From: a virus | Direction: 5' to 3' (one strand) | Virus record (IMG/VR): IMGVR_UViG_3300029911_000077 | Location: 1 to 40,880 of that record | DNA: 40,880 nt | In this document: piece after piece, positions 10,412-32,199 of the stretch | Layout of the letters: each line of letters opens with the position of its first letter | How positions within the stretch are numbered: position 1 is the first letter of the stretch | Notes under the pieces: model-generated | Databases searched by the model: none | Seen by the model: the letters and a program-made list of their open reading frames with translations, nothing else | Told to the model about the DNA's origin: nothing | Program-made: the position numbers and the translations under genes

Positions 10412-10560
10412 TTAGGTTTCTCGTGAGACCTGAGGGAATGTTGCGCGCGACCTGACTCGTGCCCAATGGGCTTGCCTTTGAACTCGACGCGCTGGGGCTT
10501 GCGCGGCTTGGGCGGCGGTCGGACGGCTTGATGGGCCGGGCTGGCGGGCGCGTCGGTCAT
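10408..10560 (-). CDS. Small basic proline-rich protein
   Basis: 50 residues; ATG 10560 overlaps the stop of the giant gene (ATGA) and its own stop overlaps the tailspike start (ATGA). The sequence is strongly basic and Pro/Lys/Arg-rich (VRPPPKPRKPQRVEFKGKPI) with no hydrophobic core, so it is probably disordered. The tight coupling at both ends argues for a real gene. Nucleic-acid or scaffold binding is possible; no family recognised. Confidence 0.55.
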   Translation of the reverse strand: MTDAPASPAHQAVRPPPKPRKPQRVEFKGKPIGHESGRAQHSLRSHEKPK

Positions 10561-13500
10561 TGGCCGACCCCGAGCTTCGCCATTTTTTGCCGCGTCGCGT
10601 CGGCCATGATCTGTGGATATTTCATGAAAAGCACCCCGCGCGCCGCCTCGCGGCTGTGTTCGACGATGGCCTTGACCGCATCGACGCGGACGCCAACGGG
10701 CCATTGACGCCAATCCGGTGAACGCACGAACACGTCGAGGCGCTGTTTCGCCATCCGGCCGGCGATGCGCGCGAAGTCATCATACTGCTGGTCTGTCAAT
10801 TGCACATTTCGGATGGTTCGATCAACGGGGGCTATCCCGATCCCAAGTTGCGCGAGCGATATGTTCACCGGGTCTTGGCTCATCCGCTGTTCGTAAATCG
10901 CGGTGGCCCCGGCGGCGATCAGCGCATCGCGCGACGGAATCGGCTGGCCCCAAATGTCGAGACGCGGAAACAGTTCTTCCGACATGCCGGGAGTTTTGGC
11001 GCGGATCGAGTCCATGACCGTGCGGGCCTGCCGAGAGTATGGGTCGCTTGCGCGCGCCATCTGCGCCATGCCGACGCTATACGGCACGAAAGACGATGCG
11101 AAATTCTGGATATAACGCTCGCCATAGCGGCCTGGGTCTTCAACGGCCTGGATCAGTTCGGCCGGCCCGCGCATGAACGACTCGTCCAGCACGTTTTGCG
11201 TGACCGCGTGCTGCATCAGCGCGGCGGCCTGCAGCATGTCGCCGGTCGACGCCGTGTGCGCCACGTCGTACAGATCGGCTGACATGCCGAGCAGCATCCC
11301 GAGCGGCCCGAGCCGGTTCATCGCATACCAAGTGTCTCCGATCCGAACGGAATGCGGCTGGTTTCCGGCCATGCGCCACATCGCGGCCTTGTTGCGATCC
11401 ATCGGGCCAGAGCCGCTCACGTAGCCACTGGCGGCGAGCGAGCCGAAGCCAATCGACAGCGCCGTGCCGACGATCATGCGGGCCTGCGCCATGTCCTGCG
11501 CGGCGACGCCGTTGCGGCCCATCAGGTCCGCGCGGATTTCCGACGACAGCAGGCCGGCGGGCGTCCGCTGCACGATGGACTGGTCGATGATATTCGCCGC
11601 GATGTGGACGAACGGGTCGATAAACTTGAGGATCGGCGTCTCGCCGAGGCCGGGCAGATTCGGAGCCCAATTGGTCAGTTTCGATAGGTGCTCGACGAAC
11701 TTGCCGGCAGGCCCCATGAGCGTGAGGTCCGTCGCCCCCTTCGTCGAGGCCGACATGATGTCATCGGGCGTGTTCAATCGCAATTGCGCGATCTTCGCCG
11801 CGTCGCCTTCGGCCTGCCGGTAGATCAGCGCCGATTTCTCGATGCTGTAATTCATGGCTCGAAAAAAGGTGTGGATAGATGCGATGGCGCGGCTCGGCGC
11901 GCGCGCAAGCTGCCCGATCGGGATCACGCCCCCTCGAACCCGGACGTCGAAGATAGCGCCCATCGGCGAATACATCGGCGCGGCGGTGCGCTCGCCGGCC
12001 GGCGTCGCCTCAAGCACCTTGCCTATGGCGAGCGCGCCGTCGAGCACTCCACGAAACGCGCCGAAGATCGCCGCCTTGGCGTCCGCGCGCGTCGCGCCCT
12101 CGTTCAGCATCTTGCCGGCCAGCGGGAGCGCCTGCTCCGGCTGATAGGGGAGGGCACGCACCTTGTCTTGGCCGGGAAGCCGCCCGGTCAGGCCGGTGCG
12201 GAAAGCGTCGGCCGCCGCTGTGACCGCCGGGATATAGCCAGACGCCGCGCCGCGTAGTCTGGCCGCCACCTCGCCGAAGCGGACTACGTTCGAAGTGTCG
12301 CGACCCATTGGGCCGCGCAGCGCGCCCAGCGCGGCGGCTGTGGTGGTTTCGAGCAAGCCCTTCTGCATCGACAGGATCATGTTGCCGATCACGTAGGTTG
12401 TATGCGTCGCCGGGCCGGAGATCAGCCCGTTGATCCAGTATTCCAGCAACATGCGACCGAACGAATGCTTCGCGGTCGCGTCGGTCAGATAGGCGATGGC
12501 TTCCGGCGTCTCGTAGGCCGCCAACAGCTTCATCTCCTGCGTCTTTTGGTAGAGCGTGCGGCCGGTCGCCGCGAGCATCACCTTGTCGATATCGCCCTGC
12601 ATCATGCGGAAGATGTTGAGCGCGCGGCCCGCCTCCGCCGTCGCGCCCATGATCGACTTAAGCACCATGTCGAGCCGGGCCTGTTCGGTCGCGAACGCCA
12701 GCACGCCTTCCGGCGACTCATCCTTGAGCCGCGAGATGCGCCCTACCTCGTTGGCTTGGTCGGTCAATAGCTCCTTGAGCGCCACGATCTGCTCGGCGTT
12801 CATCGCTCGCCCGCGCACCCAGCCATCGACCAAATCGGCCGCGCCAAACTTACCCATCGCCGCGGCTAGTTCCTGCGTTTGCGCCCACGTCGTCGGCGCG
12901 CGGCGGTCGCCGATGAAGTCGCCATTCGCCTCGGAGCGCGCCTTGATCGCCGCCCACACGTCGTCGGCGACGTTGATGTTGGCGCGCTTGAAATTGCCCG
13001 CCTTGTCTACGTAGGGGGATTCTCCGTCCCCGATGAGCCTGACGGGCCGGGGGGCGAGGGGGGCATCCCTAAGAGGGTCGCTAGATTCGGGTCGTCCGCT
13101 GGCGGAGCCTCCGGCGGTGGGCTTGCCGACTTCTGCCGGAGCTGCATTTCCGCCTGCGCGCTCCTGGCCGCCTGCGCCGCCCATGACGCCGCCGCCGGAC
13201 TGAGCCCCGGCTTGGCCGCCACCGCCGACCATTTCTGGTAATCCGACGTCGCCGCGTCCAACTTCTCCTGCGGCGTCGCCTCCTGGTCCTGCTGCTGCGG
13301 CTTCGACTTCTTGGACGGCTTGGGCGATTTCATCGGCGATCTCCGTCGGCGGTTGAGCGTCGTCAAAATGCGGCCGCTCGGCCTCGACCCGGTCGGCCGC
13401 GCCGCTCGCGTGTTCGTGCGGCGTCTGCTCGGCGGCTTCCGCGTGGAGGTCGTCGAGGCCGCGCCCCGGTTCCGCGTGCGGCGCGATCACCGTAGCGCGA

Positions 13501-16500
13501 TCTTTCGTCTCGTGCATGTATTCGAACACGCTGCGTAGCGCCGGACTGATTTCTACGTTCAGGCCCTCCACCCGATCGTAGAGAGGGAGCATCCAGTCGC
13601 GGAACATCTTGAACACGCCGTCGAGCGCGCGCGTCGGCGCGGTTCCCTCGTAAAGCCAGCGCATGTAGCCGTTGGCGAACTTCTCGTGCGCCTTGGTCGA
13701 GATCACGTTGTCCGCGCCAACGCCTGTTTCGCGCTTGGCAACCTCCCACATATCGCGCATCCGTTGCGGCGCTTCAGGATGTGCGGCGTCGCGCTTGAGC
13801 ATCTCGAAGAAATCGTGGCCGAGTTCGTGGATCGCCGTCGTCGCGTTGGCAATTTTCATCAACGTGATGATCGACCGCTGGCCGAGCCGCAAGAGGATGC
13901 GGCCGAACTGGCTCTGCTCAAGCTTGCGCTCGTCCTCATCTGGCTTCTCGGCTTCAATGGCCTGCGGAGCCTTTGACGGGTCTTTCGGCTTCAAGTCCTC
14001 CGTCAGCGCGGCCAGCTTCGCAGCCGCTTCGGCGTATTCCGCTTGGCGCGGCCATGTCGCCGCCGCTGCCTTCGACAGCGTGTCGTATTCTTTCTGGTTC
14101 CCCGCGATCTGCGCCTCGACGCGATCCGCCTGCGCCTTGATCTCCGCGAGCAACCCGGTGAACTTCGCCATCAGGCCGACCGGATCAGTCTCGCTGTTGA
14201 TGATGAACTCGTTCGGGCTGGCGTAAAGGCTATTTCCCTCAAGCTGTAGCTTGCCGACGGTGATGATGTTTTCCTCTTGCGACGCGCCGCCGTAGGAATA
14301 GCTGCGCCTCAATTCGATGCTGGCCGGGAAGCCGCCAATCTCGCCGAAGTTAAGTGCGCGGGCGCTATGGCTCAATTGCGGAGCAATCCGCAGCACGCCG
14401 TCACGCACCTTCTCGCCGGCTGCTTTCCGGTCCGTGAGCGTGGTCCCGTCGCTCAACGTGATCTTGAACTTGTCGCCGCGAATGTCCTGCACGCGCTCGG
14501 AATCCTCTTTCGCAGGCGCAAGGTTCCGCTTCAATTCTTCAATGTGAGATTGCAGGCCCTTCACCTGCCACGTCGCACGCTGCTTGGTCTGGTCGAAACC
14601 GCGCTTTTGCGCCGTCAGTTGCCGCACCTGCCGCGTCAGTTCGGCGTGCTGCATGATGCGCGGGTCGCCGGAGGCCGCCGCCTTGAGCATCTCGGCCTCG
14701 GGCAACGGGTTGTCGATGTCCTCGGCGACGCGGACGCCCTTCGATCCGCTGTTGACCTGCCCGATGAACTTCGCCTTGCGCTCTAAAAGCTGCCAGCGCG
14801 TCGCGTCCAGCGACCGTTCGGTGATGTAGCGCAGGATATGGACCTCTTTGTTGAGGTTGCCTTGGCGCAAAATGCGCCCATCGCGCTGTTCGATCTCCGC
14901 CGGCTTATGTGTCGGGTCCATGTGGTGCATGGCGATCAGGCGCTTCTGCGCGTTGGTGCCGACGCCCATCTTTTCCGTCGAGCCGATCAGCACGCGCGTC
15001 ACGCCGTCATTCATGCGCGCGAATAGGGCGCGCTTCTTCTCATCGCTGTCGGCGTCGTGGATGAACTCGATCTCCTTGCGCGGGATACCTTCGGCCACAA
15101 GCCGCTGGCGCATGTCCTCGTAAAGATTGATCGGTGGCGGCTTCCCGGCCGCGCTCTCGTCCTTCGGGACCACGGTGCGCAGCGCCTTCTGCTCGGCCTT
15201 GGTCAGATCGCCCCACGAACGCTGCCAGTCGCGGTCCTCAATGTTCTTCGTCGATCCCGCCGCGCGCGCCCAATCCATGCGCTCGTCGCCGGTCACGGCG
15301 TCCCAAGTCGCGGCGTAGCCTTCATCGCTCTCGGCGACCCTGGCCTTGGGCGTGCCGCGATCCATGAACACCATCTGCGAGCGCGCGTTCGGATCGTCCT
15401 TGTAGCGGTCGTATATGTCTTTGATGTTCTTGACCGCGAGCGCGATTTTGCCGTTCGGGTTGAACTCCATCGGCTTCGGCACCGCAAAGCCCATGATGTC
15501 GCCGTCGCGCAGCAAGCGCCCGTCGAGCGCGGCCTTGTTCCCGGCCCCCATGAGCGACAGCGTGTTGTCCTCGCCCTTCTCGCGCCGCAGGCCCTTGATC
15601 TCGGCGAGGCGCTCCACGATGCGCCGCACGGCGGCTTCCTCGTGCTCGGAAAGCTGCGCGGTGTGAACTTCGATCCCCGGCTTGCCGTCGCGCGTCATCA
15701 ACGCCGGGCGTGGCAGGTTCAACTGCTCGGCCGATTGCGAGTCGGCGATCTCGGAATAGAGCGAGATCAACTCGGGAATGTTGACGAACTTCGAGAACGA
15801 CGTGACGTCTTTGATCGACCTCCCGTCGGGAGCCATCTCGGGCTGCGTCACCACCTTGCCGAAGGTGTTGCCCCAAGCGTCGAACTTATCCAACCCGCGC
15901 TCTTTGAGCTTGTCGAGTTGCAGATAGCGCATCATGGTCCAAAGCTCGGCCATGCTGTTCGACATCGGCGTGCCGGTCGCGAAGATCGCCGAGCGCCCAG
16001 GCTTGCGCTGCTCGAGGTAGCGAATCTTCATAAACAAGTCCTCCGACCGCTGCGAGGCGGCGGAGGAAAGCCCGCGAATGTTCGAGTAGCGCGTCGGGAA
16101 GGCAAGGTTTTTGAACAGGTGCGCCTCATCGACGATCACTTGGTCAATGCCCGATTCCTCGAATGTCGTTCCCTCGTCCTTCACTTCGTCGTTCAACAGT
16201 TTTTGCAGTCGGGCGTTCATCTTCTCCATCGCGCTTTCAAGCTGCTTGACGGTGCGCGACTTCTTTGTTTCCCCCGCCGCACGATCCGCCGCCTGCTGCG
16301 CTTTAAGCGCTTCGCGATATTCCGCAAGCTGGTCTTGGATGAATTGGCCTTGCGTTTCGCTCGATACGCCGATGCGTCCGAACGCGCTGTGCGTGAAGAT
16401 CACGGCGTCCCAATCGTTCGAGGCGGTTTTGGCTACAAACGCGCGGCGCGCGTCGGGCGACATCTCGTCCTTGTTCGCCACTAGGATGTTGGCGTCAGGA

Positions 16501-19500
16501 TAGGCCTGAATGAACTCGGTCGAGAATTGGTCGAGCATGTGGTTCGGGACGGCCACGCAAGGCTTTTGAATAAGTCCCAGCCGCTTTTGCTCCATCGCCG
16601 CCGCTATCATCGTTACGGTCTTACCGCTCCCGACCGCGTGCGCGAGCAGCGTGTTGCCCTTCTGCAAGATGCGCCAGACCGCGTTCTTTCGGTGCGCGCG
16701 GTCGGTGAACATCGGATTGAGGCCCGGTAGCGTCAGGTGCGAGCCGTCGGCCTTCCATTGCACCAGATCGTTCATGGTCCGATTGTAGACGCCCTCAAGC
16801 AATTCGCCGCGCTGCTGGTCCGCGAACGCCCAAGGCTCCACGCCCTTGTCAGGGTCGCCGGAGAACATCGAGCGGATTTCCTCGATCTTCGCCGCGACTT
16901 CTTCTGTCTTGGCTTGGTTCACAACGCGCGTGTCGCGGTCGATCTGGTCATAGACCGTGATCTGATTGTTGTTGAACGCCGCCTTCATGATCGACTTGAG
17001 AGTGACGTCAGATCGACCGACGCCCCATTTCGTCTCTGCCGATGGCTTGAAGCGGTCAGCCTCGACGCGCCATTCCTTGTTGACCGGCAGCAATTCGACC
17101 TTCGGATTGACCGCGCCCAATTCCTTGAGGAAGTCGGCGTGGACCTGCGCGGGTATCCACGGTGCGCCCAACTGCGCCGTGATGTCTACGGCTGTCAGCA
17201 GGGGCGGCTGCACCTTTTCGAGCGCCGCGACGTTGCGCGCATAGGTCGGATCGGTCGCGGCGATGGCGCGCGCATCTTCCAACTTCTTGATGACGGTTCC
17301 CGACAGGTATTGATCGGCGGATTCCCATTCGCGCCCGTTCGGGTTCTGGTAGATCAGGTCGCCCAAGCGCGCGACAACCTCGTCCTCGTCCTTCGCTCCC
17401 ATAAGCTTACCGATCTCTTGCAGATCGACCTTGCCTTGGGTGTCAAGCACGGACGCCAGCGCGTCGGCGGAACTGTTGATCTTGCGGTCCACCGGCGCGG
17501 CGATGACGTCCTTGGTCTGGATCGCGGCGCGCGTCGCCGTATCCTTCTCAGGATCGTAATTCTCAATGGACGCAACCTTGTAGACGTCGGGGTCGTCGCG
17601 GAATTCCTCGAAGTTCGGATGCTTGATGCGAACCTGCGGGTTGCCGTCAGCGTCCAGCTTCTTCGAGACGATCTTAACCTCTTTGCGGATCGGGCCGTGT
17701 TTCGCCACGAACTCGTCGTAGGCGTCGCGCAGCGCCTCGCGCAGCTTCTCGGCGTCGCCGCCCTTGCCGAGTTGCGCCTTGAGCAGATCGTTGTAGATGT
17801 CGCGTATGCCGATCAGCTTCGACACGCGCGCAACGGTCTCCGGCGACATTTTCTGCGGCTCGCCAATGCCCTGAACGCGCCGGTAAATCTGGCCGTCTTT
17901 GAGAGCGTATCCGCCTTCTTTGACGTCCATTCCCATGTCGTCGCGATTGATGGTCGGCGGCGGCGGCGTGGCGCGCTTGGTGAAAGCGCCGGGCGGCATT
18001 TTTCCCGCCGCCTCGCCGATCTTGGCGCGCAAATCGTCCGGCTCGCCCATCAGCACGGGCTCGTTCGCTCCATACATCGAGCCTTTCAGCCGCATTTCGC
18101 CGAGCATCATGTCGGGGCGGTCGGCGAAATACTCGTTGATGTGCGTCGGGCCTTCCGGCGTCTGGATTTCCTTCGTGTCCATCCAGTCCGCGCTCGCGAA
18201 CGGAGCCTCGCCCGGAATCTTCTTGCGCAGGAAGATAATGTCGGTCGTGACTTCTGTTCCAGCGTTGCCGGCGAATGCGCCCTCCTTGCCGCCTGGCAAG
18301 CGGATCGCGCCCACAAGATCGGCGTCTTTCGCCAGCCGCGCGCGCACGTCCGAATTGGCCTTGTCCATCGTCCCCTTGGACGTGATGAACGCCACCACGC
18401 CGCCAGGGCGAACCTTGTCGAGCGACTTCACAAAAAAGAAATCGTGGATCAGGTGAGTGCCGTGCGGCTTCTCCGTCAGCGAATAGCTGCCGAACGGCAC
18501 GTTGGAGATCGCGAGATCGTAATAGTTCGACGGGCGCTTGAGCGTCTCGAAGCCCTGATTGTTGACCTCCGCGCCGCCGTATAGCGCCTTGGTGATGCGG
18601 GCGGACAGCGGGTCAAGTTCAACAGCGGTCCATGACGTGCGCGGCGCGACGCTATCGGGAATGAGACCGATGAAATGGCCGATGCCGGCCGACGGCTCGA
18701 TGGCCTCGCCGCCCTTGTAGCCGAGCGCCGTCAGCGCATCCCACATGCCCTTGACGACTTCCGGCGACGTATAGTGCGCGTTCTTCGTCGAAGCGCGCGC
18801 GGCGGCGTATTCCTCGTTGGTGACGAGAGCGCGAAACGCCTTGCGCTCCGCCTTGAACTCATCCTGCCGGTCGGCATTGAACATCTTTTCAGAGAACGCG
18901 CCCCAGCCGGTGTATTTGACCAGCTTCGCCTTTTCCTCTTGCGTCGCCTCGCGCGCCTCGTCCTCGATCAGCTTGAGCGTCTTGATCGCGTCGATGTTCG
19001 CCCGAATCTTCGCCTTCGGGCCGCCCTCGCCGATGGCGTCGGCGTCGGTGATGCGATAGTTCGCGCGCGACCGCTCCGCGATCTTTTGGCGCGCTTCTAC
19101 TCGTCCTGCGGCTGCGGCGTCGGTTGATGGATCAGGTCGTGCCTGATCAGTTCCGTCAGAGCTTCTTGGTGGCCCGCTAACACTTTCTCCCTCGCCAACT
19201 GGTCCAAGTCCCTCGTCTCGTCGAGCTTCTTGAACATTTCGTGGTTCATCGTCTCCGCCGCCGACTCCCCCACCGAGGTCAGTCGTGCTTGGAGTTTGCC
19301 GGATTGGCTTAGGCTCCGGTGCAGGCGTGGGTGATTCGCTTTCAGGAAGCTCTCGTGCTCCGCCGCGAACCGTCTCTCCATCGCGTCCATAATCGACACT
19401 CCATTCCGGCGCGCTCGCCCAGGCGTCATCGAACAACTTGAGCGCCCGATCCATCACGTCGCGGTAGATCGCGGTATCAGCCGGGTCGACCGATTCTTTC

Positions 19501-21956
19501 AGCCGCTTCACCGGCTGTCGCATCTCGTGCGCCTCGTCCATAACCCGCATCACGGGCTCAGGGACAAGCTGCAACTCCGCCGACATGCCGTCGCCAAGGC
19601 CTATTTGCAAGTGGATGGCGCGATAACCTTCCTTGCCCGGACGAATAAAGTCCTCGGCCTCGATTATTGCGCCCGTTGCCTTGATTTTGTCGAGAATGGC
19701 GTCTAGGTTTTGAACGTGGTCGACAACGATACGCGCGCCGAGATAGTCGGATATCGTGTTCGGGTTCCGCCTCTTCGCCGACAATTTGAGTTCGAGGCCC
19801 GGCAAGTCCTTTGCCCGCGCCCCATACACGCGCGCGCCGTCGACGCCCTTGACTAGCTCGTTAAGCCTGTCGAGAAGCTTCGGCTTGTTTTCCTCGGCGG
19901 CGGCCAGCAGCGCCTTGTAGTCGCTTGATCCTTGAATTATCTTCTTACCGGAGGCTTGGTCGATGTCCCCCAACGAAAAATCGGTGAAGCGCGTAATCTC
20001 TGGCCCCTCGAAGATCGACGGCGGCATCTGCCGCATGGTCGAGCTTTCCGACGGCTCCGCGCGCTGCGAATCCTGGATCAAAGGCTCGGGCTGGGAGGAA
20101 GGCGGCTGCTTCCCTTCCGAGTTCATGTTCGCGCCGCCGGTCTCCTCGGAGCTTGCCTCGCGGATGGGCTGTCCCACTTCCGAGCTTTCCAAGGTCTGAA
20201 CCGGCTCGGGCTCGGGTTCCGGCTCCGGCGCTTCCGCGATCTGCTCCTTTGCGATCGCATCGACGTCCGGCTCCGGGGATGCCGCGCGCCGTTGCGCCTC
20301 CGCCTCGGCCTCCGCCGGCACGACGGGCAACTCAGGCGGCAGCTCGACCGACGCGACCACTTCCGGCCCGGTCTTGGCGCGCTTTCCGCCCACGCGGCGC
20401 ACCTTGCCGTCCTCGCCTCTGATATCCGCGCCCTCGCGGCGATAGATTTCCTCCGGCGTTCCGATCTTGCCCTCGAACGCCTCCGAGCGCGCGGCCATGC
20501 GCGACGCCACGATGTGCCCCAGCGCCTCGGCTTCATCCGGCGGGCGTCCGGCGCTGATGAACTGGCGCTTGGCGTCGTCAACGATGGCCTGCAGGTCGCC
20601 GCCGCCGGCCGCCGCCTCGCCCTCCGGCGCGACCATCGCCCCGCCGACCTTCTCCGCCGCGCGCCGGTGCGCCGCGCTGATCTCTGGCGCGATGTCCGCA
20701 ATCTTGGCTTCTACGGCGGTAACTTGCGCGTCGAGCGCGCCGTCGTGCGGCAATTCGTCGGCGGCCTTCACGAGCGCGTCGCGCTGCGCGGTCAACGCCT
20801 CATATTCGCGGAACGCCTCGACGTGCGCGTCGCGCGCGAGCGGAGCCGGGTTCGGCAGTTCAGCCGTCCCGACGGTCGCTTGTTCCTCGCGCTGCGCGGC
20901 CTGCGCGGCCTGCTCCACGGCGGGCGGAGATTCCTCGTCGCCCATGAACGTCTTTTCGGTGCGAGCCGGGCCGCCCACGCCAAGCGCCCAGGCGTCGGTC
21001 AGCGTGGGGGGCCGCTCGCCATAAACGTAGTTTGCGTCGACGTCGGCCAGCGTGTGTTCTGGTCCGGCTGGCGGTTCGGTCACGGCTCCGTAAATGCCGC
21101 CCACGTCGTAATCCTGTCGCCCCCGGAACCGCTGACCTTGTTCCTCGAATGGCGGTTCTTGGGGTTTCAGCCCCATCACGTCATGTGCGGTAGTTCGCCC
21201 GAGCAAGCGCGGAATGATGCCCTCTATGGCCTCTCCGAAGCGATTTGGCTTGTTGAACACCAGACCGAAGCCGGTCGAGATCGCGACCTTGTTCCAATCG
21301 ACGTCGCCCTCGGCCGCCTCTTGCCCCAACTCCATGCCGCCCATCAACGCGCCGCTGAATAGCCGCTGCGTCGCCGGATTGACCATTAGACGTTGGAGCG
21401 CGGTCGAGTTCTCCGGCAGTTTCGCCGCCGCTGAAAAACCGCCCGGTTTCATCGTCAGCGCGAACGGAGCCATGCCGCCGAGAAATGTCGCGTAGGGGTG
21501 CTGCTCTTGGTCGAGGCGCTGCTGGCGCTCGTCTTGGCCTATCGACTCCACCCACGAATCCGGCAGCTTCGACAGGCCGTAATCCTGAGCCTTCTCAGCC
21601 GCGAACGATCCGCCGAACCCGCCGATCAAGCCGCCAGCAACGCCGCCGACCAATTCGGAAATGCCGGTTTCGCCGAGGCCTGGGACCAGAGCGCCCGCCG
21701 CCGCGCCGTAGGCCGCGCCCGCTCCTGCGCCAGCGAGACCGCCCGCCGCCGGGAGCGCGCCGCGCGCCGCGCCTCGCGTGAACGCGCCGGACGTTGATGA
21801 GCCTGTCGGGTCGACGGTCTGGCCATTCAGCAGTTTCGCGAACGGGTCGTTCTCGTCATCGGCAGGCGGCGGCGCGGCCTGATAGCGCAGCGGCTGGTCG
21901 CCGCCGCCTAAGACGCCCGCAAACGGATCGGCAACTTGACCATCGGCATCGGCCAT
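10557..21956 (-). CDS. Giant polyvalent protein: RelA/SpoT-like, adenine methyltransferase, SNF2 helicase, zincin, virion region
   Basis: 3799 residues from ATG 21956 (TAATG overlap with the transglycosylase gene). Approximate domains: 60-130, glycine-zipper hydrophobic segment; 385-520, helical polyvalent-type region; 650-850, RelA/SpoT-like nucleotidyltransferase with Asp737 in SDYLGARIV, G777-YRAIH and E794-L-Q; 985-1200, N6-adenine methyltransferase with E1087-PSAGIG and N1152-VPF; about 1240 on, N12-class methylase/helicase region (HINEYFADRP); 1770-2400, SNF2 helicase with GSGKT at 1776-1780, DEAH at 1943-1946 and QRDGRILRQG at 2357-2366; about 2640-2790, zincin with HELGH at 2710-2714; 2990-3799, helical region resembling C-termini of large podovirus internal proteins. 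Methyltransferase plus SNF2 recalls P1 DarB, which enters with phage DNA and blocks restriction. Position in the internal virion protein block suggests it is packaged and ejected. Two linkers (856-954 and 2875-2984) are overprinted by other genes. Confidence 0.9.
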   Translation of the reverse strand: MADADGQVADPFAGVLGGGDQPLRYQAAPPPADDENDPFAKLLNGQTVDPTGSSTSGAFTRGAARGALPAAGGLAGAGAGAAYGAAAGALVPGLGETGISELVGGVAGGLIGGFGGSFAAEKAQDYGLSKLPDSWVESIGQDERQQRLDQEQHPYATFLGGMAPFALTMKPGGFSAAAKLPENSTALQRLMVNPATQRLFSGALMGGMELGQEAAEGDVDWNKVAISTGFGLVFNKPNRFGEAIEGIIPRLLGRTTAHDVMGLKPQEPPFEEQGQRFRGRQDYDVGGIYGAVTEPPAGPEHTLADVDANYVYGERPPTLTDAWALGVGGPARTEKTFMGDEESPPAVEQAAQAAQREEQATVGTAELPNPAPLARDAHVEAFREYEALTAQRDALVKAADELPHDGALDAQVTAVEAKIADIAPEISAAHRRAAEKVGGAMVAPEGEAAAGGGDLQAIVDDAKRQFISAGRPPDEAEALGHIVASRMAARSEAFEGKIGTPEEIYRREGADIRGEDGKVRRVGGKRAKTGPEVVASVELPPELPVVPAEAEAEAQRRAASPEPDVDAIAKEQIAEAPEPEPEPEPVQTLESSEVGQPIREASSEETGGANMNSEGKQPPSSQPEPLIQDSQRAEPSESSTMRQMPPSIFEGPEITRFTDFSLGDIDQASGKKIIQGSSDYKALLAAAEENKPKLLDRLNELVKGVDGARVYGARAKDLPGLELKLSAKRRNPNTISDYLGARIVVDHVQNLDAILDKIKATGAIIEAEDFIRPGKEGYRAIHLQIGLGDGMSAELQLVPEPVMRVMDEAHEMRQPVKRLKESVDPADTAIYRDVMDRALKLFDDAWASAPEWSVDYGRDGETVRGGARELPESESPTPAPEPKPIRQTPSTTDLGGGVGGGDDEPRNVQEARRDEGLGPVGEGESVSGPPRSSDGTDQARPDPSTDAAAAGRVEARQKIAERSRANYRITDADAIGEGGPKAKIRANIDAIKTLKLIEDEAREATQEEKAKLVKYTGWGAFSEKMFNADRQDEFKAERKAFRALVTNEEYAAARASTKNAHYTSPEVVKGMWDALTALGYKGGEAIEPSAGIGHFIGLIPDSVAPRTSWTAVELDPLSARITKALYGGAEVNNQGFETLKRPSNYYDLAISNVPFGSYSLTEKPHGTHLIHDFFFVKSLDKVRPGGVVAFITSKGTMDKANSDVRARLAKDADLVGAIRLPGGKEGAFAGNAGTEVTTDIIFLRKKIPGEAPFASADWMDTKEIQTPEGPTHINEYFADRPDMMLGEMRLKGSMYGANEPVLMGEPDDLRAKIGEAAGKMPPGAFTKRATPPPPTINRDDMGMDVKEGGYALKDGQIYRRVQGIGEPQKMSPETVARVSKLIGIRDIYNDLLKAQLGKGGDAEKLREALRDAYDEFVAKHGPIRKEVKIVSKKLDADGNPQVRIKHPNFEEFRDDPDVYKVASIENYDPEKDTATRAAIQTKDVIAAPVDRKINSSADALASVLDTQGKVDLQEIGKLMGAKDEDEVVARLGDLIYQNPNGREWESADQYLSGTVIKKLEDARAIAATDPTYARNVAALEKVQPPLLTAVDITAQLGAPWIPAQVHADFLKELGAVNPKVELLPVNKEWRVEADRFKPSAETKWGVGRSDVTLKSIMKAAFNNNQITVYDQIDRDTRVVNQAKTEEVAAKIEEIRSMFSGDPDKGVEPWAFADQQRGELLEGVYNRTMNDLVQWKADGSHLTLPGLNPMFTDRAHRKNAVWRILQKGNTLLAHAVGSGKTVTMIAAAMEQKRLGLIQKPCVAVPNHMLDQFSTEFIQAYPDANILVANKDEMSPDARRAFVAKTASNDWDAVIFTHSAFGRIGVSSETQGQFIQDQLAEYREALKAQQAADRAAGETKKSRTVKQLESAMEKMNARLQKLLNDEVKDEGTTFEESGIDQVIVDEAHLFKNLAFPTRYSNIRGLSSAASQRSEDLFMKIRYLEQRKPGRSAIFATGTPMSNSMAELWTMMRYLQLDKLKERGLDKFDAWGNTFGKVVTQPEMAPDGRSIKDVTSFSKFVNIPELISLYSEIADSQSAEQLNLPRPALMTRDGKPGIEVHTAQLSEHEEAAVRRIVERLAEIKGLRREKGEDNTLSLMGAGNKAALDGRLLRDGDIMGFAVPKPMEFNPNGKIALAVKNIKDIYDRYKDDPNARSQMVFMDRGTPKARVAESDEGYAATWDAVTGDERMDWARAAGSTKNIEDRDWQRSWGDLTKAEQKALRTVVPKDESAAGKPPPINLYEDMRQRLVAEGIPRKEIEFIHDADSDEKKRALFARMNDGVTRVLIGSTEKMGVGTNAQKRLIAMHHMDPTHKPAEIEQRDGRILRQGNLNKEVHILRYITERSLDATRWQLLERKAKFIGQVNSGSKGVRVAEDIDNPLPEAEMLKAAASGDPRIMQHAELTRQVRQLTAQKRGFDQTKQRATWQVKGLQSHIEELKRNLAPAKEDSERVQDIRGDKFKITLSDGTTLTDRKAAGEKVRDGVLRIAPQLSHSARALNFGEIGGFPASIELRRSYSYGGASQEENIITVGKLQLEGNSLYASPNEFIINSETDPVGLMAKFTGLLAEIKAQADRVEAQIAGNQKEYDTLSKAAAATWPRQAEYAEAAAKLAALTEDLKPKDPSKAPQAIEAEKPDEDERKLEQSQFGRILLRLGQRSIITLMKIANATTAIHELGHDFFEMLKRDAAHPEAPQRMRDMWEVAKRETGVGADNVISTKAHEKFANGYMRWLYEGTAPTRALDGVFKMFRDWMLPLYDRVEGLNVEISPALRSVFEYMHETKDRATVIAPHAEPGRGLDDLHAEAAEQTPHEHASGAADRVEAERPHFDDAQPPTEIADEIAQAVQEVEAAAAGPGGDAAGEVGRGDVGLPEMVGGGGQAGAQSGGGVMGGAGGQERAGGNAAPAEVGKPTAGGSASGRPESSDPLRDAPLAPRPVRLIGDGESPYVDKAGNFKRANINVADDVWAAIKARSEANGDFIGDRRAPTTWAQTQELAAAMGKFGAADLVDGWVRGRAMNAEQIVALKELLTDQANEVGRISRLKDESPEGVLAFATEQARLDMVLKSIMGATAEAGRALNIFRMMQGDIDKVMLAATGRTLYQKTQEMKLLAAYETPEAIAYLTDATAKHSFGRMLLEYWINGLISGPATHTTYVIGNMILSMQKGLLETTTAAALGALRGPMGRDTSNVVRFGEVAARLRGAASGYIPAVTAAADAFRTGLTGRLPGQDKVRALPYQPEQALPLAGKMLNEGATRADAKAAIFGAFRGVLDGALAIGKVLEATPAGERTAAPMYSPMGAIFDVRVRGGVIPIGQLARAPSRAIASIHTFFRAMNYSIEKSALIYRQAEGDAAKIAQLRLNTPDDIMSASTKGATDLTLMGPAGKFVEHLSKLTNWAPNLPGLGETPILKFIDPFVHIAANIIDQSIVQRTPAGLLSSEIRADLMGRNGVAAQDMAQARMIVGTALSIGFGSLAASGYVSGSGPMDRNKAAMWRMAGNQPHSVRIGDTWYAMNRLGPLGMLLGMSADLYDVAHTASTGDMLQAAALMQHAVTQNVLDESFMRGPAELIQAVEDPGRYGERYIQNFASSFVPYSVGMAQMARASDPYSRQARTVMDSIRAKTPGMSEELFPRLDIWGQPIPSRDALIAAGATAIYEQRMSQDPVNISLAQLGIGIAPVDRTIRNVQLTDQQYDDFARIAGRMAKQRLDVFVRSPDWRQWPVGVRVDAVKAIVEHSREAARGVLFMKYPQIMADATRQKMAKLGVGQ
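13007..13333 (-). CDS. Overprinted gene inside the giant gene, second linker
   Basis: A second reading frame on the same strand encodes 108 residues from ATG 13333, with GGAG 7 bases upstream. It overlaps giant residues 2875-2984, where the giant frame is a Gly/Ala-rich low-complexity linker. The overprinted product has a Lys/Ser/Pro basic start (KSPKPSKKSKPQQQDQE), a helical centre with a SDYQKWSAVAAKPGLSP segment and an Ala/Gln-rich helix, and a Pro/Ser-rich tail. It looks more like an ordinary helical protein than the Arg-rich products of most shadow frames here. No family is recognised. The alternative is an accident of GC-rich linker composition. Confidence 0.45.
   Translation of the reverse strand: MKSPKPSKKSKPQQQDQEATPQEKLDAATSDYQKWSAVAAKPGLSPAAASWAAQAARSAQAEMQLRQKSASPPPEAPPADDPNLATLLGMPPSPPGPSGSSGTENPPT
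19097..19390 (-). CDS. Overprinted TnpV-like small protein inside the giant gene
   Basis: 97 residues from ATG 19390 with GGAG 8 bases upstream, in a different frame from the giant gene and covering giant residues 856-954, a Pro/Gly/Glu low-complexity linker between the RelA/SpoT-like and methyltransferase domains. The product reads as a normal helical protein and matches the layout of TnpV-type proteins from mobile elements: F15-LKANHPRLHRSLSQSGKL near residues 15-33, a spaced helix with acidic residues, then L71-A-x-x-QEALTELIRHDLI near 71-87. I know this 'HP-L ... SGKL ... QEA-E-I ... DLI' pattern from memory; no alignment was run. The function of TnpV is not established. The natural composition, start signals and motif together make it likely to be real. 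Confidence 0.55.
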   Translation of the reverse strand: MDAMERRFAAEHESFLKANHPRLHRSLSQSGKLQARLTSVGESAAETMNHEMFKKLDETRDLDQLAREKVLAGHQEALTELIRHDLIHQPTPQPQDE

Positions 21957-24900
21957 TACGGCGAAATCCCCATTGTCGTGTTGAACACCGGGGCTAGCGC
22001 ATCCTGTTTCGGCGGCTCATTTCCCACGTTTTCAGGCTTGCCGACAAGGCTCCCGCGCAGATCGCGCACGGTCCGCTCCGCCGAGAAGCCTGCCGGGCCG
22101 AAGTGTTTGTCGAAATATTGCATCGTCGCGTTCGTCGGGCTCTCCGACAAAATACTAAGCACATTAGCCCATTGTGTGTGCGTGATCGGTTTCCCGCCGA
22201 CGCTGGGCGGCTTTGTGACGTAAGACTGCCACGCCGCCGGAGCGACATTTGCAGGCGGTGGAGGAAGTGGCGCGTCAGGCGCTTCCTGCCCGCCCGCGCC
22301 GATCTGAAATTCGTTGATCTTCGCGCGGGGCCTCAATATCGTGAGCATTTGGTCCAGCTTTTTCTGATCAAACAGCGGGAAGTCCGCCATGTTCTTGTTA
22401 GCGTTGCGCCAATCATCCAACTGCCCATAGAACATGTTGAGGAACTTCAATTCGTAGATGCCCTTACCTTCCGGGTCTTTCACCTGGTAATAAGGCTCGT
22501 TCACGCTCTTATCGAGATAGTCCTTCGCGTAGCTTAGAACGCCAGCCTCACGTTGTTGCATCCCGAGTTCGCTCGTGGATTTCTTCGTCTTGTCGAGGAC
22601 GCCGAGCAAATGGTCTGAGCCCTTGGCCGTCAACTTTCCGTCGGCTTCCATCTTCAAGATGTCGCGCGGATCGCTGATCCGATCAGTCTCACTCTTGGGC
22701 TCGACGATGTTCTTGAGCGCGTCGGCGTATTCCGAGCCGTAGCTGATCGGGTTAGGGTTGCCGGATCGGCGCTCAAGAACGTCGCTCAACGTGTCGAATG
22801 CCTTTTCCGATAGCGGCCGGCGCGGGTCGGCCATTAGCGCGTTCAATTTCGCATAGGCCGCCGTGTAACTTTCCTTGCGCGCAGTCCCGAGAACGTCGTC
22901 TGTCGCCTCTTTCTCGCGCGCGGCCACGGCGCGTTGCTGCTCGCCGGCCGCCGCGATCTCGAACGCCGCGCGTTGTGTGATCTGGCGCTCGCCCTCGATC
23001 ATCTGCTCTGGCGTCAGACCCATGCCCTGCAAATGTTGCATCGCCGCCGACTGGCGGTCGTAGATCGCGTTCACCACATCCTCGGGCGTCTGCGGCGGCG
23101 CGGGAGGCGTCAACGCGGCAGGCGGAGATGTAGTGAGCGCGGCGTCGGTCGGCTTGACCGTTTCGAGGGATTCTGGCTCGGCCGACGGCGCGGCGTCCTC
23201 CCAGCCGGGCCGCGCCATCGTCCCGCTCGCCGACAGGGAGCCATGACCAAGAGGCTGCGTTGTGGCGGCGACGCCGGGCGCGCCCAGCCGCCCCAAGATG
23301 CCATTCACATATTGCGAGACGAATGTGCCTTGCCCGTCGTGGCGGTTCTCTTTCCACGGCGTCGCCGAGCCGGGCGGCGCGACGTTCCCCTCGCCGGAGA
23401 AATAAGCGACCGCCACTCGTGCGGCGTCGCCGTTATATTTCTGCGAGTAATATTCAAGGATGCGGTGGCCGACGCGCTTGTTGTCCTCGGGGTTGTCAAT
23501 CGTCTCCCCCGGCTTGGCGAACCGATTGAATGTGTCGGGGATGATCTGCATGTCGCCGTGCGCATTATCGACGCTCGTCGTCGTGTTCTTGCCGCCGCCG
23601 GATTCTTGGCCGTGGAAAGCGGGATAGAGATCATCGCCGGAATACTTCTTGCCGCTTGCCGCTGCCGGGGCTACGTCGCCCAATAGCCCACTGTAGCTCG
23701 CCGGATGAACACGGTCTGGCGACAATTTCGACGGGTCGACAGGTTGAAACTTCGCGCCGGTTTCATTTGCAAATTTTTTGATCCTGTCGTTCAGCCCGGC
23801 AAAATCAGCCCGATCACCAACGCCCATCACCGTGATGTCTGACGGTTTCGCGCCCTTCTTGATCGCCTCGCTGATTTGAGAGAAAGCGTAACCGACGTCC
23901 TTTGGGCTGTTTGACAGCCCTGTGGAGATGACAACCGGCTTCCCAGCAAGGGAGCCGTCAGGGAGCGCGTGCAAGACATCGTAAACCTGCTGCGGCGTGC
24001 GCCCGACTTTTGTGTCACCCGACAGCCCGTAGGCTGTTTTTACGCCTTCGCCGAGGCTGTCGCCGTAGACTTGGGCGTTCGAGGAAACCGGCGTCGTCTT
24101 GGGCGGGCCGCTCCCCGCCGCGTCCCAAGAAGCATTGCCGCCGCCTTTGCCGACAGCGCGGTCCGCCGCCTGGTGCGCCTTGTCGAGCGCCGCGCCAAAC
24201 GCGACGCCGAATTTCGCCTCGTTGGCGCGCACAAACGCTTCCGCCTTCGTCGGGTCGTTGACCTCAATTGTGTCGGCCTTCGAGATATAGGAGCGGGCGA
24301 CACTATCGCGCACGCTCTTTGCTGTGGCGTCATAGTTCGAGCCAAGTGCGGTTTTCAGTTTCGGGTCATCCAGCTTGGCGAACGCCCCGTCAGGGTCTTT
24401 CGTCGCCATTCCTTCAAGGCCGGATTTGTAGACGAGAGCCGCTTTATCCTTCGCTGCCGCGATTGAGTCGGGGTCGGCCTCCATACCGGCGCTTTGCAGC
24501 TTCTTGATCTCGCCCGACAGCGCCTTGTGATAGGAAACTTCGACTGTCGCCCAATTTCCGTCAGACCCCGCCGTGGCCGCCATCGAGTGCGCGACTTCGA
24601 TTCCGGCGTCTGCTGTCTTAGTCGCGAACTGCCGCCCTGCATCAATAAACGTCGTGTTCAACTGCCCGCGAATGTATCGGTCAAAGAACGGGCGGTTCTG
24701 GTTGTCAAAAAAATGCTGCTGATCGGGAGTCCCGAGTTGGTTGCGATATTTCGCGTAAATGCTGTCAAGCGTCGTGTTCGCGCTCTTCTGCGCGTCAAGG
24801 GCGTCCTGTCCCTGCAACGAGCGAATATGCTCGGCGAAGTCCGATGCTTCCTTCTGCGCATTGTTCGAGGCGTCGTCCGCTTGGACGTGGCCCCAAAACT

Positions 24901-25057
24901 TGCTGAGATCGACCGCGCCAGCGCCAGCCTTTTCCGCGCCCTGCGCAATCGCTCCACCGAAGGATGACGGATTGGCCTCGATGTGCTGGTAGTCGTCGGG
25001 CGGACGGGCATCCGGCTGAACGTCGTCCGCGCCTCCGGCGTAAGGGACTTGGGCCAT
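21956..25057 (-). CDS. Internal virion protein with SGNH/GDSL-like and lytic transglycosylase domains
   Basis: 1033 residues from ATG 25057 (TGATG overlap). Residues 1-300 are helical and rich in Gln/Ala/Asp, typical of ejected core proteins. Residues about 325-460 look like an SGNH hydrolase: G332-DSL (Ser334), a glycine-containing KVGRTPQQV segment, STGLSN with Asn383, and DRVH with Asp448 and His451. Residues about 475-600 are an SLT lytic transglycosylase: catalytic Glu485 in GQESGGG, then GDMQIIPDTF and VAVAYFSGEGN. The C-terminal 400 residues are helical. Position matches T7 gp15/gp16. It probably opens peptidoglycan during DNA ejection, and the SGNH domain may remove acyl groups from envelope glycans. 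The transglycosylase is secure; the SGNH call is moderate. Confidence 0.85.
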   Translation of the reverse strand: MAQVPYAGGADDVQPDARPPDDYQHIEANPSSFGGAIAQGAEKAGAGAVDLSKFWGHVQADDASNNAQKEASDFAEHIRSLQGQDALDAQKSANTTLDSIYAKYRNQLGTPDQQHFFDNQNRPFFDRYIRGQLNTTFIDAGRQFATKTADAGIEVAHSMAATAGSDGNWATVEVSYHKALSGEIKKLQSAGMEADPDSIAAAKDKAALVYKSGLEGMATKDPDGAFAKLDDPKLKTALGSNYDATAKSVRDSVARSYISKADTIEVNDPTKAEAFVRANEAKFGVAFGAALDKAHQAADRAVGKGGGNASWDAAGSGPPKTTPVSSNAQVYGDSLGEGVKTAYGLSGDTKVGRTPQQVYDVLHALPDGSLAGKPVVISTGLSNSPKDVGYAFSQISEAIKKGAKPSDITVMGVGDRADFAGLNDRIKKFANETGAKFQPVDPSKLSPDRVHPASYSGLLGDVAPAAASGKKYSGDDLYPAFHGQESGGGKNTTTSVDNAHGDMQIIPDTFNRFAKPGETIDNPEDNKRVGHRILEYYSQKYNGDAARVAVAYFSGEGNVAPPGSATPWKENRHDGQGTFVSQYVNGILGRLGAPGVAATTQPLGHGSLSASGTMARPGWEDAAPSAEPESLETVKPTDAALTTSPPAALTPPAPPQTPEDVVNAIYDRQSAAMQHLQGMGLTPEQMIEGERQITQRAAFEIAAAGEQQRAVAAREKEATDDVLGTARKESYTAAYAKLNALMADPRRPLSEKAFDTLSDVLERRSGNPNPISYGSEYADALKNIVEPKSETDRISDPRDILKMEADGKLTAKGSDHLLGVLDKTKKSTSELGMQQREAGVLSYAKDYLDKSVNEPYYQVKDPEGKGIYELKFLNMFYGQLDDWRNANKNMADFPLFDQKKLDQMLTILRPRAKINEFQIGAGGQEAPDAPLPPPPANVAPAAWQSYVTKPPSVGGKPITHTQWANVLSILSESPTNATMQYFDKHFGPAGFSAERTVRDLRGSLVGKPENVGNEPPKQDALAPVFNTTMGISP

Positions 25058-25638
25058 CAGATACCAACCCCGCCACTCGCGACATAATCAGAGCCAATAG
25101 CGCCGTTCGCCGCCGGGGCCGCCGCGCCAGTCCAGTTCAGCCCCTTGAAGCCGATGGCTGACGCGCCGGACAACATGCTTCCGGTAGCGCCTATCGCCGC
25201 CCCGATGGGAGCTTCGGCCGCTGTCGCCTGGTCGAGCCCGGCCTGCGCCTCGAAGCCGGTCGCCTGGGTCTGATAGCCATAGGCCTGCAGCTCGGCGTTG
25301 TTCGCTATGGTCTCCTGGTCCAACTGGCCCTTCTCGCGCGTCCCGGATTCGACATCTTTCGCCGAGCCGGTATTCACGTCCACGTTGTTCGCGGCGAGCG
25401 CCGTCTTGACCATGCCGCCCTCCTCGGCGGCTTTCAGTCCGGCCTGCTCCTGCTTCGCCTGCCCGGCTTGCAGCGCGTAGGTGGCGTTCTGCTTGGCGAT
25501 CTGCGCGTTGTTCTGCGCCACCTGCGCCTGGTAGGACGCGGCGTTGCCTGCCGCGATACCGCCCAGCACCGAGCCGCCGGCCGAGACGGCGGTTCCGATC
25601 AAGCCCAGAACCGGGGCGGCGGCAGCGAGGATCGCCAT
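25057..25638 (-). CDS. Internal virion protein, T7 gp14-like
   Basis: 193 residues from ATG 25638, immediately after the upstream stop, with GGAGG 8 bases upstream. The N-terminus is a hydrophobic Gly/Ala segment (VLGLIGTAVSAGGSVLGGIAAG), followed by a long Gln/Ala/Asn-rich helix (QAQVAQNNAQIAKQNATYAL) and a second Gly/Ala-rich stretch. Length (T7 gp14 is 196) and topology match internal virion protein B, which inserts in the outer membrane during ejection. Gene order (gp13-like, this, transglycosylase) agrees. Sequence identity to T7 is not claimed. Confidence 0.75.
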   Translation of the reverse strand: MAILAAAAPVLGLIGTAVSAGGSVLGGIAAGNAASYQAQVAQNNAQIAKQNATYALQAGQAKQEQAGLKAAEEGGMVKTALAANNVDVNTGSAKDVESGTREKGQLDQETIANNAELQAYGYQTQATGFEAQAGLDQATAAEAPIGAAIGATGSMLSGASAIGFKGLNWTGAAAPAANGAIGSDYVASGGVGI

Positions 25639-26178
25639 TCAGTCCGCCTCCGATCGATAGGCCATCGGGATCATGAAGCTGGTCCCTACTGTAATTCTCA
25701 AATCAGCATTACCCGCGATTTCGCGCGCGAGCAATTGCCGACCCTCGCGGGTTTCCGCCGGGCCTTCCCAAAGACAGCCGATAGCTTGAAAGCCGAGAAA
25801 GATCGCCAGCCGCAGCGACGCCTCGTCGCCCTCGAAGATCGACGCGCGCAGTTCGCGCCGGGTTCGCATCAGTCCGGCAATCTGGCGGCGCGCTTCGACG
25901 ATCACAGCTTTGGGATGGCGGGTCGCTTCCTCGGACAGCGCCAGCCAGACCATGCCCTCACCGTTCATCAGCGTGCCGGTCACGCCGCCGACCGCCGCCA
26001 CTTTGCCGTCGATCAGCCACGCCTTGCGAAAAGCGGATTGCTCAAAGCAGTCGATCAATTCGTGGTGCGGCTTCGCGGCGGCGGTCAGCAGCGCCGCGAG
26101 ATAGTCTCGGCGCATCACGCGCGCCATCTGCCCGCAATGAAACCGCTTGGCCTCCACGATCTCGAAGCGCGGGGTCAT
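25639..26178 (-). CDS. GNAT-fold protein, T7 gp13-like
   Basis: 179 residues; ATG 26178 overlaps the upstream stop (ATGA). The order of elements resembles a GNAT N-acetyltransferase: N-terminal helix (MARVMRRDYLAALLTAAA), strand pair (AWLIDGKVAAVGGVTG), strand (MVWLALS), helix (AVIVEARRQIAGLMRTRRELRASIFEGDEAS) and an L-x-x-FLGF-x-AIG ending typical of GNATs. The classic Q/R-x-x-G-x-A acetyl-CoA loop is not visible, so catalysis is uncertain. Many podoviruses have a GNAT-like gp13 homologue between tail tubular protein B and the internal core proteins, as here. It may be a morphogenesis factor. Confidence 0.65.
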   Translation of the reverse strand: MTPRFEIVEAKRFHCGQMARVMRRDYLAALLTAAAKPHHELIDCFEQSAFRKAWLIDGKVAAVGGVTGTLMNGEGMVWLALSEEATRHPKAVIVEARRQIAGLMRTRRELRASIFEGDEASLRLAIFLGFQAIGCLWEGPAETREGRQLLAREIAGNADLRITVGTSFMIPMAYRSEAD

Positions 26179-30104: not shown

Positions 30105-31012
30105 CAGTAAGCACTCGTGTTCCCTACCCCACAGCACGCATCGCAGCCGCTGTAGAGCATCCCATAGCCGCCGTCGCCGAGCGCGCCGATAGCTTGACTG
30201 TAACCGCCCATGTAGCCGCCGCCGACATTGCGAAAGCGCATCCAGTCAGGAACGAAATCGCTGTTGTGCCACCCTTCATTTCCATCGGTAACGCGCGCCG
30301 CCATGATCTTCGCAGCCGCGATCTTCATGTTGTCCTGCCTCATCGCCATACCCATCTTAGGATTGTTCTTCCACGACCATAGCGGAAGGGCGATCTCCGA
30401 AGCGAGATAGGCGACGAACGCCGCGCGAAACTGCGCATCCCAATTCGAGGGATAATTCATCAGCGCGGTATAGACGATAGATGCGCACGGCACGTTCGTC
30501 AGGATTACGCTGCGGCCTTGCGGCGACACGCCCTGCACTTCCCACGTCAGCGCGCCAGCCTGCGCGGGATAATTCGTATCAGTGGCTTCGAGCCAGCGCG
30601 CGGGACGAAGCTGCGCGCCGGGGACCGGGCTACCGAGGCCGCCGACAAGCGGAGATGTTGGGTTCGACGGCGTAATATTGCCGGGCGGGACCACGCTATT
30701 GCCGCCCGTCGGCGACCACGGCACGAACCGCGCCTTCATGCAGTCGTTCGGATAGGCGTATTCGTAGGTCCACGGCGCTATGACCTGCGTGGGCGTGTCC
30801 GGCGTCTGACCGGAGGCGTCGGCGAGAAGCAGGAGTGGGGTTTGCTTGCGAGCAAAATTCCAATGTACAGCGCGAAGCAACTGACGAAGGCATTGGCTGT
30901 AGGCGCGCAAAAGCACCTGCGCGGGCTTCGTTCCTTCTTGCAAGTCGCCTATTGTGAAATCCAGACCTATCGCGTCAAGGGCCTGGTTCGCTACATCAGC
31001 GGGCAAGTTCAT
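30104..31012 (-). CDS. Tail tubular protein A-like, third paralogue, extended
   Basis: 302 residues from ATG 31012, four bases after the upstream stop region. It starts with LPADVANQALDAIG, followed by an R-x-Y-x-x-x-L-x-x-LLRAVHWNFA segment and WTYEYAYPNDC. These are the gp11-type features shared with the two upstream genes. The C-terminal 120 residues are an extension not in the others: a KNNPKMGMAMRQDNMKIAAAK helix and a Gly/Tyr-rich tail with cysteines (GCDACCG). It probably forms the ring between portal/neck and the gp12 nozzle. Confidence 0.75.
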   Translation of the reverse strand: MNLPADVANQALDAIGLDFTIGDLQEGTKPAQVLLRAYSQCLRQLLRAVHWNFARKQTPLLLLADASGQTPDTPTQVIAPWTYEYAYPNDCMKARFVPWSPTGGNSVVPPGNITPSNPTSPLVGGLGSPVPGAQLRPARWLEATDTNYPAQAGALTWEVQGVSPQGRSVILTNVPCASIVYTALMNYPSNWDAQFRAAFVAYLASEIALPLWSWKNNPKMGMAMRQDNMKIAAAKIMAARVTDGNEGWHNSDFVPDWMRFRNVGGGYMGGYSQAIGALGDGGYGMLYSGCDACCGVGNTSAY

Positions 31013-31015
31013 GGC

Positions 31016-31630: not shown

Positions 31631-32199
31631 TATCCCATCCTACCTTCGGCGATTGTCTCAAACGCGCCGCCGGAGTTCAAGTAAGATTCCGCCGTGTCAG
31701 GGCGCCCGTAGAGCGCCATCGCGACCTCGGACGCCAGCAGGCGCACCATCGCCTCCCGGAACCCAACATCCCAAGTCGCCTCACTCGGCGCGTTGTTCAC
31801 GATGGCCTGCGCTCCTGCGAGGCTCGACCAGATCACCTTGGTCTGCACGCTTGCGACCGTCGTGTTGCCGATAGACCAATTCTGCGGCAGCGGGTTATTC
31901 GGATCGGCGAGCGCGGGCGGTTGCACCTGCATCACTTCGATGGCGGCGGCCGGATAGACATATTCGTAGGCCCAACCCAACGGCGGGGGGTTGCCGGTCA
32001 GCGCCAGCGTGAACACACTGCGCGCGAAATCCCAGCCGTGCTGCTTGGCGACGGTCTGGTAGCATGGCAGGTAGAGGCGTGAGAGAGCTTGCCCGGCGGC
32101 GGACGAGTCGAACGTCGGAGCCTGGCCTAAAACGGGCGGCAAATTGTCGCCAATCAAGGCAAGCGACTGGTTTGCTACGTCGTTTGAAGTGATTCCCAT
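31630..32199 (-). CDS. Tail tubular protein A-like, first paralogue
   Basis: 189 residues from ATG 32199, preferred over ATG 32211 because GGTGG lies just upstream and the family N-terminus (GITSNDVANQSLALIGD) begins here. It then has an R-LYLPCYQTVAKQHGWDFAR helix and LGWAYEYVYPAAAIEV. Length matches T7 gp11 (196). It is the first of three tandem paralogues leading to the gp12-like gene. Confidence 0.75.
   Translation of the reverse strand: MGITSNDVANQSLALIGDNLPPVLGQAPTFDSSAAGQALSRLYLPCYQTVAKQHGWDFARSVFTLALTGNPPPLGWAYEYVYPAAAIEVMQVQPPALADPNNPLPQNWSIGNTTVASVQTKVIWSSLAGAQAIVNNAPSEATWDVGFREAMVRLLASEVAMALYGRPDTAESYLNSGGAFETIAEGRMG

Follow-up and report, generated by a model that had tools for sequence, protein, structure and literature searches.

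A RelA/SpoT synthetase-like domain with a conserved donor site in a giant polyvalent protein of a phage, a candidate for injection into the host

Introduction

Delivered enzymes of the alarmone type have been characterised for secretion systems and for the MuF toxins of prophages. RelA/SpoT domains have also been described in phage polyvalent proteins, for which an alarmone-like shutdown of the host was proposed, along with the suggestion that polyvalent proteins are cut by a metallopeptidase (Iyer et al. 2017, PMC5512222). The catalytic site of such synthetases has been described for S. aureus RelP, where R78 and R112 stack on the adenine of ATP, K80, K88, S84 and R91 bind its phosphates, D107 and E174 coordinate Mg, H190 contacts the ribose and Y151 the acceptor base (PMC5794853); the roles of synthetase residues were also drawn from PMC7983052. 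As for the product, the published signatures are SxH/IR for the makers of (p)ppGpp and GxN/YH for the makers of (p)ppApp, and motif swaps between these signatures failed to switch the specificity (PMC12226406).

Here we analysed a stretch of phage DNA, referred to below as the window, which is a 40,880-base IMG/VR virus record whose contig is a linear fragment. It encodes a giant protein, P0001, with a RelA/SpoT synthetase-like domain in its N-terminal part.

Results

The giant protein and its gene neighbourhood

P0001 and the genes that precede it are all read from the minus strand, and the ATG of P0001 overlaps the stop codon of the upstream gene by one base. The parts of the protein and its neighbours are as follows.

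10557..21956, minus strand: coding sequence of the polyvalent protein P0001, 3,799 aa, ATG start, no internal stop
19347..20039, minus strand: whole module, residues 640-870, including a conserved Ser/Thr/Pro-rich lead-in
19398..19955, minus strand: RelA/SpoT synthetase-like domain, residues 668-853 (modelled portion, pLDDT 88.9, pTM 0.84)
19566..19817, minus strand: match to the PF04607 RelA_SpoT profile, residues 714-797
13911..19238, minus strand: DarB-like methyltransferase and SNF2-type helicase region, residues 907-2682 (phrog_10089, 1596 bits)
13815..13829, minus strand: HELGH (HExxH) zinc-peptidase signature, residues 2710-2714 (motif)
10908..11642, minus strand: C-terminal region resembling the internal virion protein phrog_6651, residues 3439-3683
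21956..25057, minus strand: upstream gene, 1,033 aa, with a lytic transglycosylase SLT domain, overlapping P0001 by one base
25057..25638, minus strand: T7 gp14-like internal virion protein (PF24072, phrog_418)
25639..26178, minus strand: second internal virion protein (phrog_308)

Tail genes stand further upstream of the internal virion protein genes, an arrangement that places P0001 where T7 has its core protein genes. Of 12 records (the window plus 11 relatives), 7 encode a gp14-like protein. The gene shares the strand of the domain and precedes it by a few kb in G002, G007, G010 and G011. In G001 it is situated near the opposite contig end, as might be the case in a circularly permuted genome, and the G008 match to gp14 is weak and lies at a distance. 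The DarB-like core was matched by 102 phage records. Since the P0001 gene directly follows the gp14-like and transglycosylase genes and the protein is mostly DarB-like, P0001 is likely to be ejected into the host with the phage DNA, and this also leans on the established behaviour of P1 DarB and the T7 core proteins. Elsewhere in the window, three adjoining genes at 30104-32211 (minus strand) match one tail protein family (phrog_394) and are apparently tandem paralogues; a DUF6745 protein (61 bits) is encoded at the left end (2-688, plus strand), on the strand opposite to the structural genes; and directly downstream of P0001 stands a gene for a 983-aa protein (7460-10411, minus strand), which gave no Pfam, PHROG or NCBIfam match.

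A polyvalent protein combines a number of conflict-type domains within a single virion-associated chain, and this is what P0001 presents: a RelA_SpoT domain, the DarB-like methyltransferase/SNF2 helicase region, the HExxH signature and an internal-virion-like C-terminus, next to gp14 and SLT neighbours. HExxH motifs also occur in the polyvalent proteins of the relatives L002 (HEGSH), L015 and L017. Together with that of the window, they would fit the metallopeptidase proposed by Iyer et al., and a self-processing of the polyvalent chain is possible. The 3,888-aa polyvalent protein of L017 also contains, at residues 2463-2585, the central domain of the DNA polymerase III beta-clamp (PF02767, 35.8 bits).

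The domain is preceded by a Ser/Thr/Pro-rich lead-in of the form PPSxQ...STxPEP...SR..PPS...GP (window ~19960-20080), which occupies the equivalent spot in L002, L004, L005, L007, L008, L012 and L016 and can still be recognised where the identity of the domain falls below 40%. Its conservation exceeds that of a plain linker.

Identity of the domain

The sequence-only reading had proposed a RelA/SpoT-type nucleotidyltransferase domain embedded in a phage polyvalent protein, and this was borne out by both profile and fold. The PF04607 scores all exceed the curated cut-off of 27: 27.4 bits with the whole protein, 31.9 with the isolated domain and 33.6 when the genome was searched. Each of the eight members of the first round, seven relatives plus the window, also matched PF04607 individually. 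A single-sequence search of the PDB with the domain was only marginal (RelP, E 0.008), so relatives were brought in. The resulting profiles of 8 and 11 members match solved alarmone synthetases, the best being B. subtilis YwaC/RelP (1.6e-11 and 2.3e-12, respectively). Weak PDB matches to a homing endonuclease and to ribosomal protein S8 were put down to chance, since they disappeared with the family profile.

Two AlphaFold models of the domain (mean pLDDT 82.5 and 88.9, pTM 0.79 and 0.84) show a nucleotidyltransferase fold with the predicted order of elements helix-strand-helix-strand-helix-three strands-two helices. The best 50 PDB matches listed for the models are RSH, SAS or toxSAS synthetases, all with a probability of 1.00, and the best TM-scores by query length belong to SaEAS (8vx3, ~0.69) and CapRel (9erv, 0.68). 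In the viral library, the top matches with a name are uncultured-phage proteins of the RelA/SpoT, DdrB-like and ART-PolyVal-like kinds. Taken together, profiles and models confirm residues ~668-853 as a RelA/SpoT synthetase domain with a predicted nucleotidyltransferase fold. A chance match of motifs is ruled out by the PF04607 score, the family profile matches, the conserved columns equivalent to RelP positions and the fold matches.

Relatives in other phages

The domain alone as a query found nothing in viral contigs; the DarB-like core as a query gave L002, in which the core is 60% identical and the domain, at the same position in the protein, 58-60% identical. The alignment grown from L002 reached L004, L005/L011, L007/L015, L008, L009/L017 and L010, and then L012-L016. 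In all, the IMG/VR profile searches yielded 38 relatives or loci, and removal of near-duplicates left 24 non-redundant sequences, including the window, for the conservation counts given below. Compared with INPHARED phage records by tblastn, the domain gave no match; with L008 as the query, annotated RelA/SpoT proteins from Sinorhizobium phages are among the INPHARED matches. Two scans of genome-collection contigs confirmed no relative, and a megablast search with the first 24 kb of the window gave no match.

The RelA-like module precedes the methyltransferase in the window and L002, follows it in L011, and stands beside ParB-like regions in L004; such a varying order is expected for a shuffled cargo domain. 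In a second class of phage proteins the domain lies close to the C-terminus, and Arg-Leu mostly stands where the window has Val-Pro; this class comprises L044-L058 (~815-865 aa) together with L037-L041 and L046-L048 (~1,055-1,134 aa). L041, like L004, also matches the portal protein profile phrog_21.

The active site

Alignment to S. aureus RelP (SaRelP) placed its R78, K80, S84, K88, R91, D107, R112, Y151, E174 and H190 at R714, K716, G720, K724, A727, D737, R742, Y778, E794 and H810 of P0001, respectively. On this alignment the site is laid out as follows.

19785..19817, minus strand: R714, K716 and K724 of the ATP site
19731..19748, minus strand: D737, of the Mg-binding type, and R742, of the adenine-stacking type
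19611..19625, minus strand: acceptor loop with Y778, A780 in place of Ser, and H782
19560..19577, minus strand: E794-L-Q796-L-V798-P799, with a Glu of the Mg-binding type and Val-Pro in place of Arg-Thr
19527..19529, minus strand: H810, equivalent to the ribose-binding H190

The landmarks S736-D737-Y-L-G-A-R742, G777-Y778-R-A-I-H782-L783 and E794-L-Q796 had been located and numbered correctly in the sequence-only reading, and V798-P799 does stand at the position of the Arg-Thr, as claimed there.

The catalytic and donor residues proved to be conserved among the 24 non-redundant members, whose identity goes down to ~23%. K716, K724, D737, R742, Y778, E794 and Q796 are invariant in all of them, the counts for D737 and Y778 being biased by the search seeds ISDYLG and GYRAxH; R714 is kept in 23 members, and H810 varies in four. 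R714, K716, K724 and E794 never lay within a search seed, and R742 did so in the last scan only. When 11 members were aligned, seven of the eight SaRelP positions contacting ATP, Mg or the acceptor base fell among the 18 invariant columns (hypergeometric P ~7.5e-8); without the columns used as search seeds by then, it was five of six positions among nine invariant columns (~3.5e-7, hand calculation). A complete ATP/Mg site, with R714, K716, K724, D737, R742 and E794 as its putative residues, is therefore well supported, and by homology the pair D737/E794 would lie in one site.

Other positions are changed. The equivalents of the phosphate-contacting S84 and R91 are G720 and A727, which vary across the family. 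The Ser of the SxH motif is Ala in 23 of the 24 members, and the Asn preceding Gly-Tyr is not retained. At the Arg-Thr position, 12 members have Val-Pro and 10 have Arg followed by another residue, mostly Leu, so that Val-Pro is best regarded as a mark of lineage. Decay of the active site is ruled out by the same comparison, given the (nearly) invariant catalytic residues and a Val-Pro common to 12 members.

These changes bear on whether the domain might be a pseudoenzyme or a structural or regulatory relic that binds a nucleotide without transfer, for example as a sponge for host alarmones or a part in virion assembly. The substitutions at the S84, R91, SxH and QIRT positions would agree with this, as would the embedding of the domain in a very large protein. 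But the loss of catalytic residues expected of a pseudoenzyme is not seen: Asp and Glu of the catalytic pair, the two Arg that stack on adenine, the two Lys and the acceptor Tyr are (nearly) invariant even at ~23% identity, and we regard a non-catalytic role as unlikely.

The acceptor and the product

The acceptor side of the domain follows neither published pattern. Its syn3 motif is AxH, differing from both the SxH of the (p)ppGpp makers and the GxN of the (p)ppApp makers, and its syn4 residues are LV, differing from both IR and YH; the sequence therefore points to neither product.

The acceptor might instead be RNA. Just as CapRel and FaRel2, the domain could pyrophosphorylate the 3'-CCA of host tRNA, thereby blocking translation instead of making an alarmone. 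CapRel (TMq 0.68) is among the best folds by TM-score beside SaEAS (0.69), the ATP site and the acceptor Tyr are common to both kinds of enzyme, and the acceptor-side positive patch of FaRel2 is far smaller than in alarmone synthetases (PMC11782079), which would fit the loss of Arg. However, enzymes that act on tRNA do so through a strongly basic groove (PMC11559606), whereas the domain has a net charge of -2 and a pI of 6.0, as calculated from sequence, and most of the Val-Pro clade is neutral to acidic, L028 being basic. Moreover, CapRel of phage SJ46 has GxH and QLRT against AxH...VP here, and the sequence match to CapRel (E 0.19) is far weaker than that to RelP (2e-12). Modification of tRNA thus seems rather unlikely. 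The closer match to RelP and the neutral to acidic charge, both weak arguments, would favour a free purine nucleotide over tRNA as the acceptor.

HD hydrolases in related phages

A small alarmone hydrolase-like HD_4 protein with an intact HDxxED motif is encoded in three related records that also carry the synthetase domain.

G008:C1:22315-22863, minus strand: HD_4 protein
G009:C1:9828-10343, minus strand: HD_4 protein
G012:C1 near 8273-8539, minus strand: HD_4 protein

Two of these proteins, from G008 and G009, match SpoT over its hydrolase half, and all three contigs of this sub-clade with 15 kb or more of sequence downstream of the domain encode an HD protein. An HD_4 gene is absent from the window record, its closest relatives and the 87-kb relatives, and the HD protein was matched by 106 viral stretches. 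Because of this absence, and because hydrolases are common in phages, the link between hydrolase and synthetase is weak; the co-occurrence lends weak support to a nucleotide product, in that one clade only.

The HD hydrolases could also speak for an active domain that serves the prophage state or a conflict between phages, or for a self-restraining toxin with an immunity gene, comparable to MuF-Apk2. Temperate phages do have MuF-linked (p)ppApp synthetases accompanied by immunity genes (PMC12226406). Yet the Pfam search of P0001 gave no MuF match, the window record lacks an HD_4 hydrolase gene, the next downstream gene has no PHROG or NCBIfam match, and no integrase was noticed in passing in this partial record. 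We consider such a role very improbable.

Discussion

In this work, we obtained computed support for a RelA/SpoT synthetase domain in a phage polyvalent protein: its fold, its conserved donor and catalytic residues, and a gene located among those of internal virion proteins. Our inferences concern its activity and acceptor, the ejection and processing of the protein, and the gain for the phage. Because the donor site is intact, an active ATP-dependent 3'-pyrophosphokinase is the most likely reading, and we give about even chances to the full proposal that such an enzyme, of the RelA/SpoT type, is injected as cargo of an ejected internal virion protein and slows the host early in infection. Against it speak the loss of the S84 and R91 equivalents and the replacement of the SxH Ser by Ala and of the QIRT Arg by Val.

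According to this mechanism, the module would be one cargo among several in a giant internal virion protein, next to the DarB-like methyltransferase-helicase and a possible zinc peptidase. The giant protein would be ejected into the host together with the phage DNA, and inside the host the domain might be freed by proteolysis. It would then move pyrophosphate from ATP onto the 3'-OH of a purine (guanosine or adenosine) nucleotide, and the alarmone-type product would slow host transcription, translation or metabolism as the infection starts. If the domain is active, a stress-signal enzyme would arrive as protein before phage transcription, and a control system or nucleotide pool of the host would be turned against it within the first minutes.

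A bolder extension, which we hold to be distinctly improbable, would be that the domains with AxH...ExQ[ILV]VP belong to a pyrophosphokinase subfamily that is specific to phages and widespread, travels in ejected internal virion proteins and makes an alarmone or another 3'-pyrophosphorylated product with an acceptor specificity beyond the known G-, A- and tRNA-types. This enzyme would act before phage gene expression and, in one clade, be reversed by a phage hydrolase made later.

The domain represents a known kind and not a new one, since polyvalent RelA/SpoT domains were already described by Iyer et al. in 2017. Our searches found no earlier report of the subfamily and its context; the kind itself and the idea of host shutdown have been known since 2017 (PMC5512222). 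A literature search for an alarmone synthetase tested in an ejected T7-like core protein found none. We consider the interest of the finding moderate, its main source being a compact domain of ~190-230 residues with an intact conserved site, which makes the 2017 proposal directly testable.

As to the known systems, residues 907-2682 of P0001 resemble P1 DarB and the DarB-like antirestriction proteins, while tblastn with the RelA/SpoT domain matched no phage record of INPHARED. The exported (p)ppApp synthetases Apk1/Tas1 and Apk2 are likewise delivered domains, and Tas1 (6ox6) matches by fold; unlike them, the window protein lacks a MuF or PAAR part and the GxN/YH signature, and an immunity gene was not identified. 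The tRNA pyrophosphokinases CapRel and FaRel2 (toxSAS) are alike in fold and ATP site, but the window shows neither a visible antitoxin part nor a strong positive charge, and the syn3 and syn4 residues differ. RelP/SAS2 (S. aureus 6ewz/6fgj; B. subtilis YwaC 6fgk) gave the best profile matches and the best Foldseek E-values. The domain keeps the counterparts of R78, K80, K88, D107, R112, Y151, E174 and H190 and is changed at S84, R91, the SxH Ser and the QIRT Arg-Thr, with an identity of ~18%; unlike the embedded domain, RelP is a free-standing cellular tetramer. The polyvalent proteins of Iyer et al. share with P0001 a RelA/SpoT domain set alongside further conflict domains in a large phage protein of many domains. 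Those cases come from prophages of epsilonproteobacteria and spirochaetes and from MuF fusions, and are set apart here by their description, not by sequence; compared with them, the window presents a DarB-like protein within a T7-like internal virion cassette and the AxH...[ILV]VP variant of the domain.
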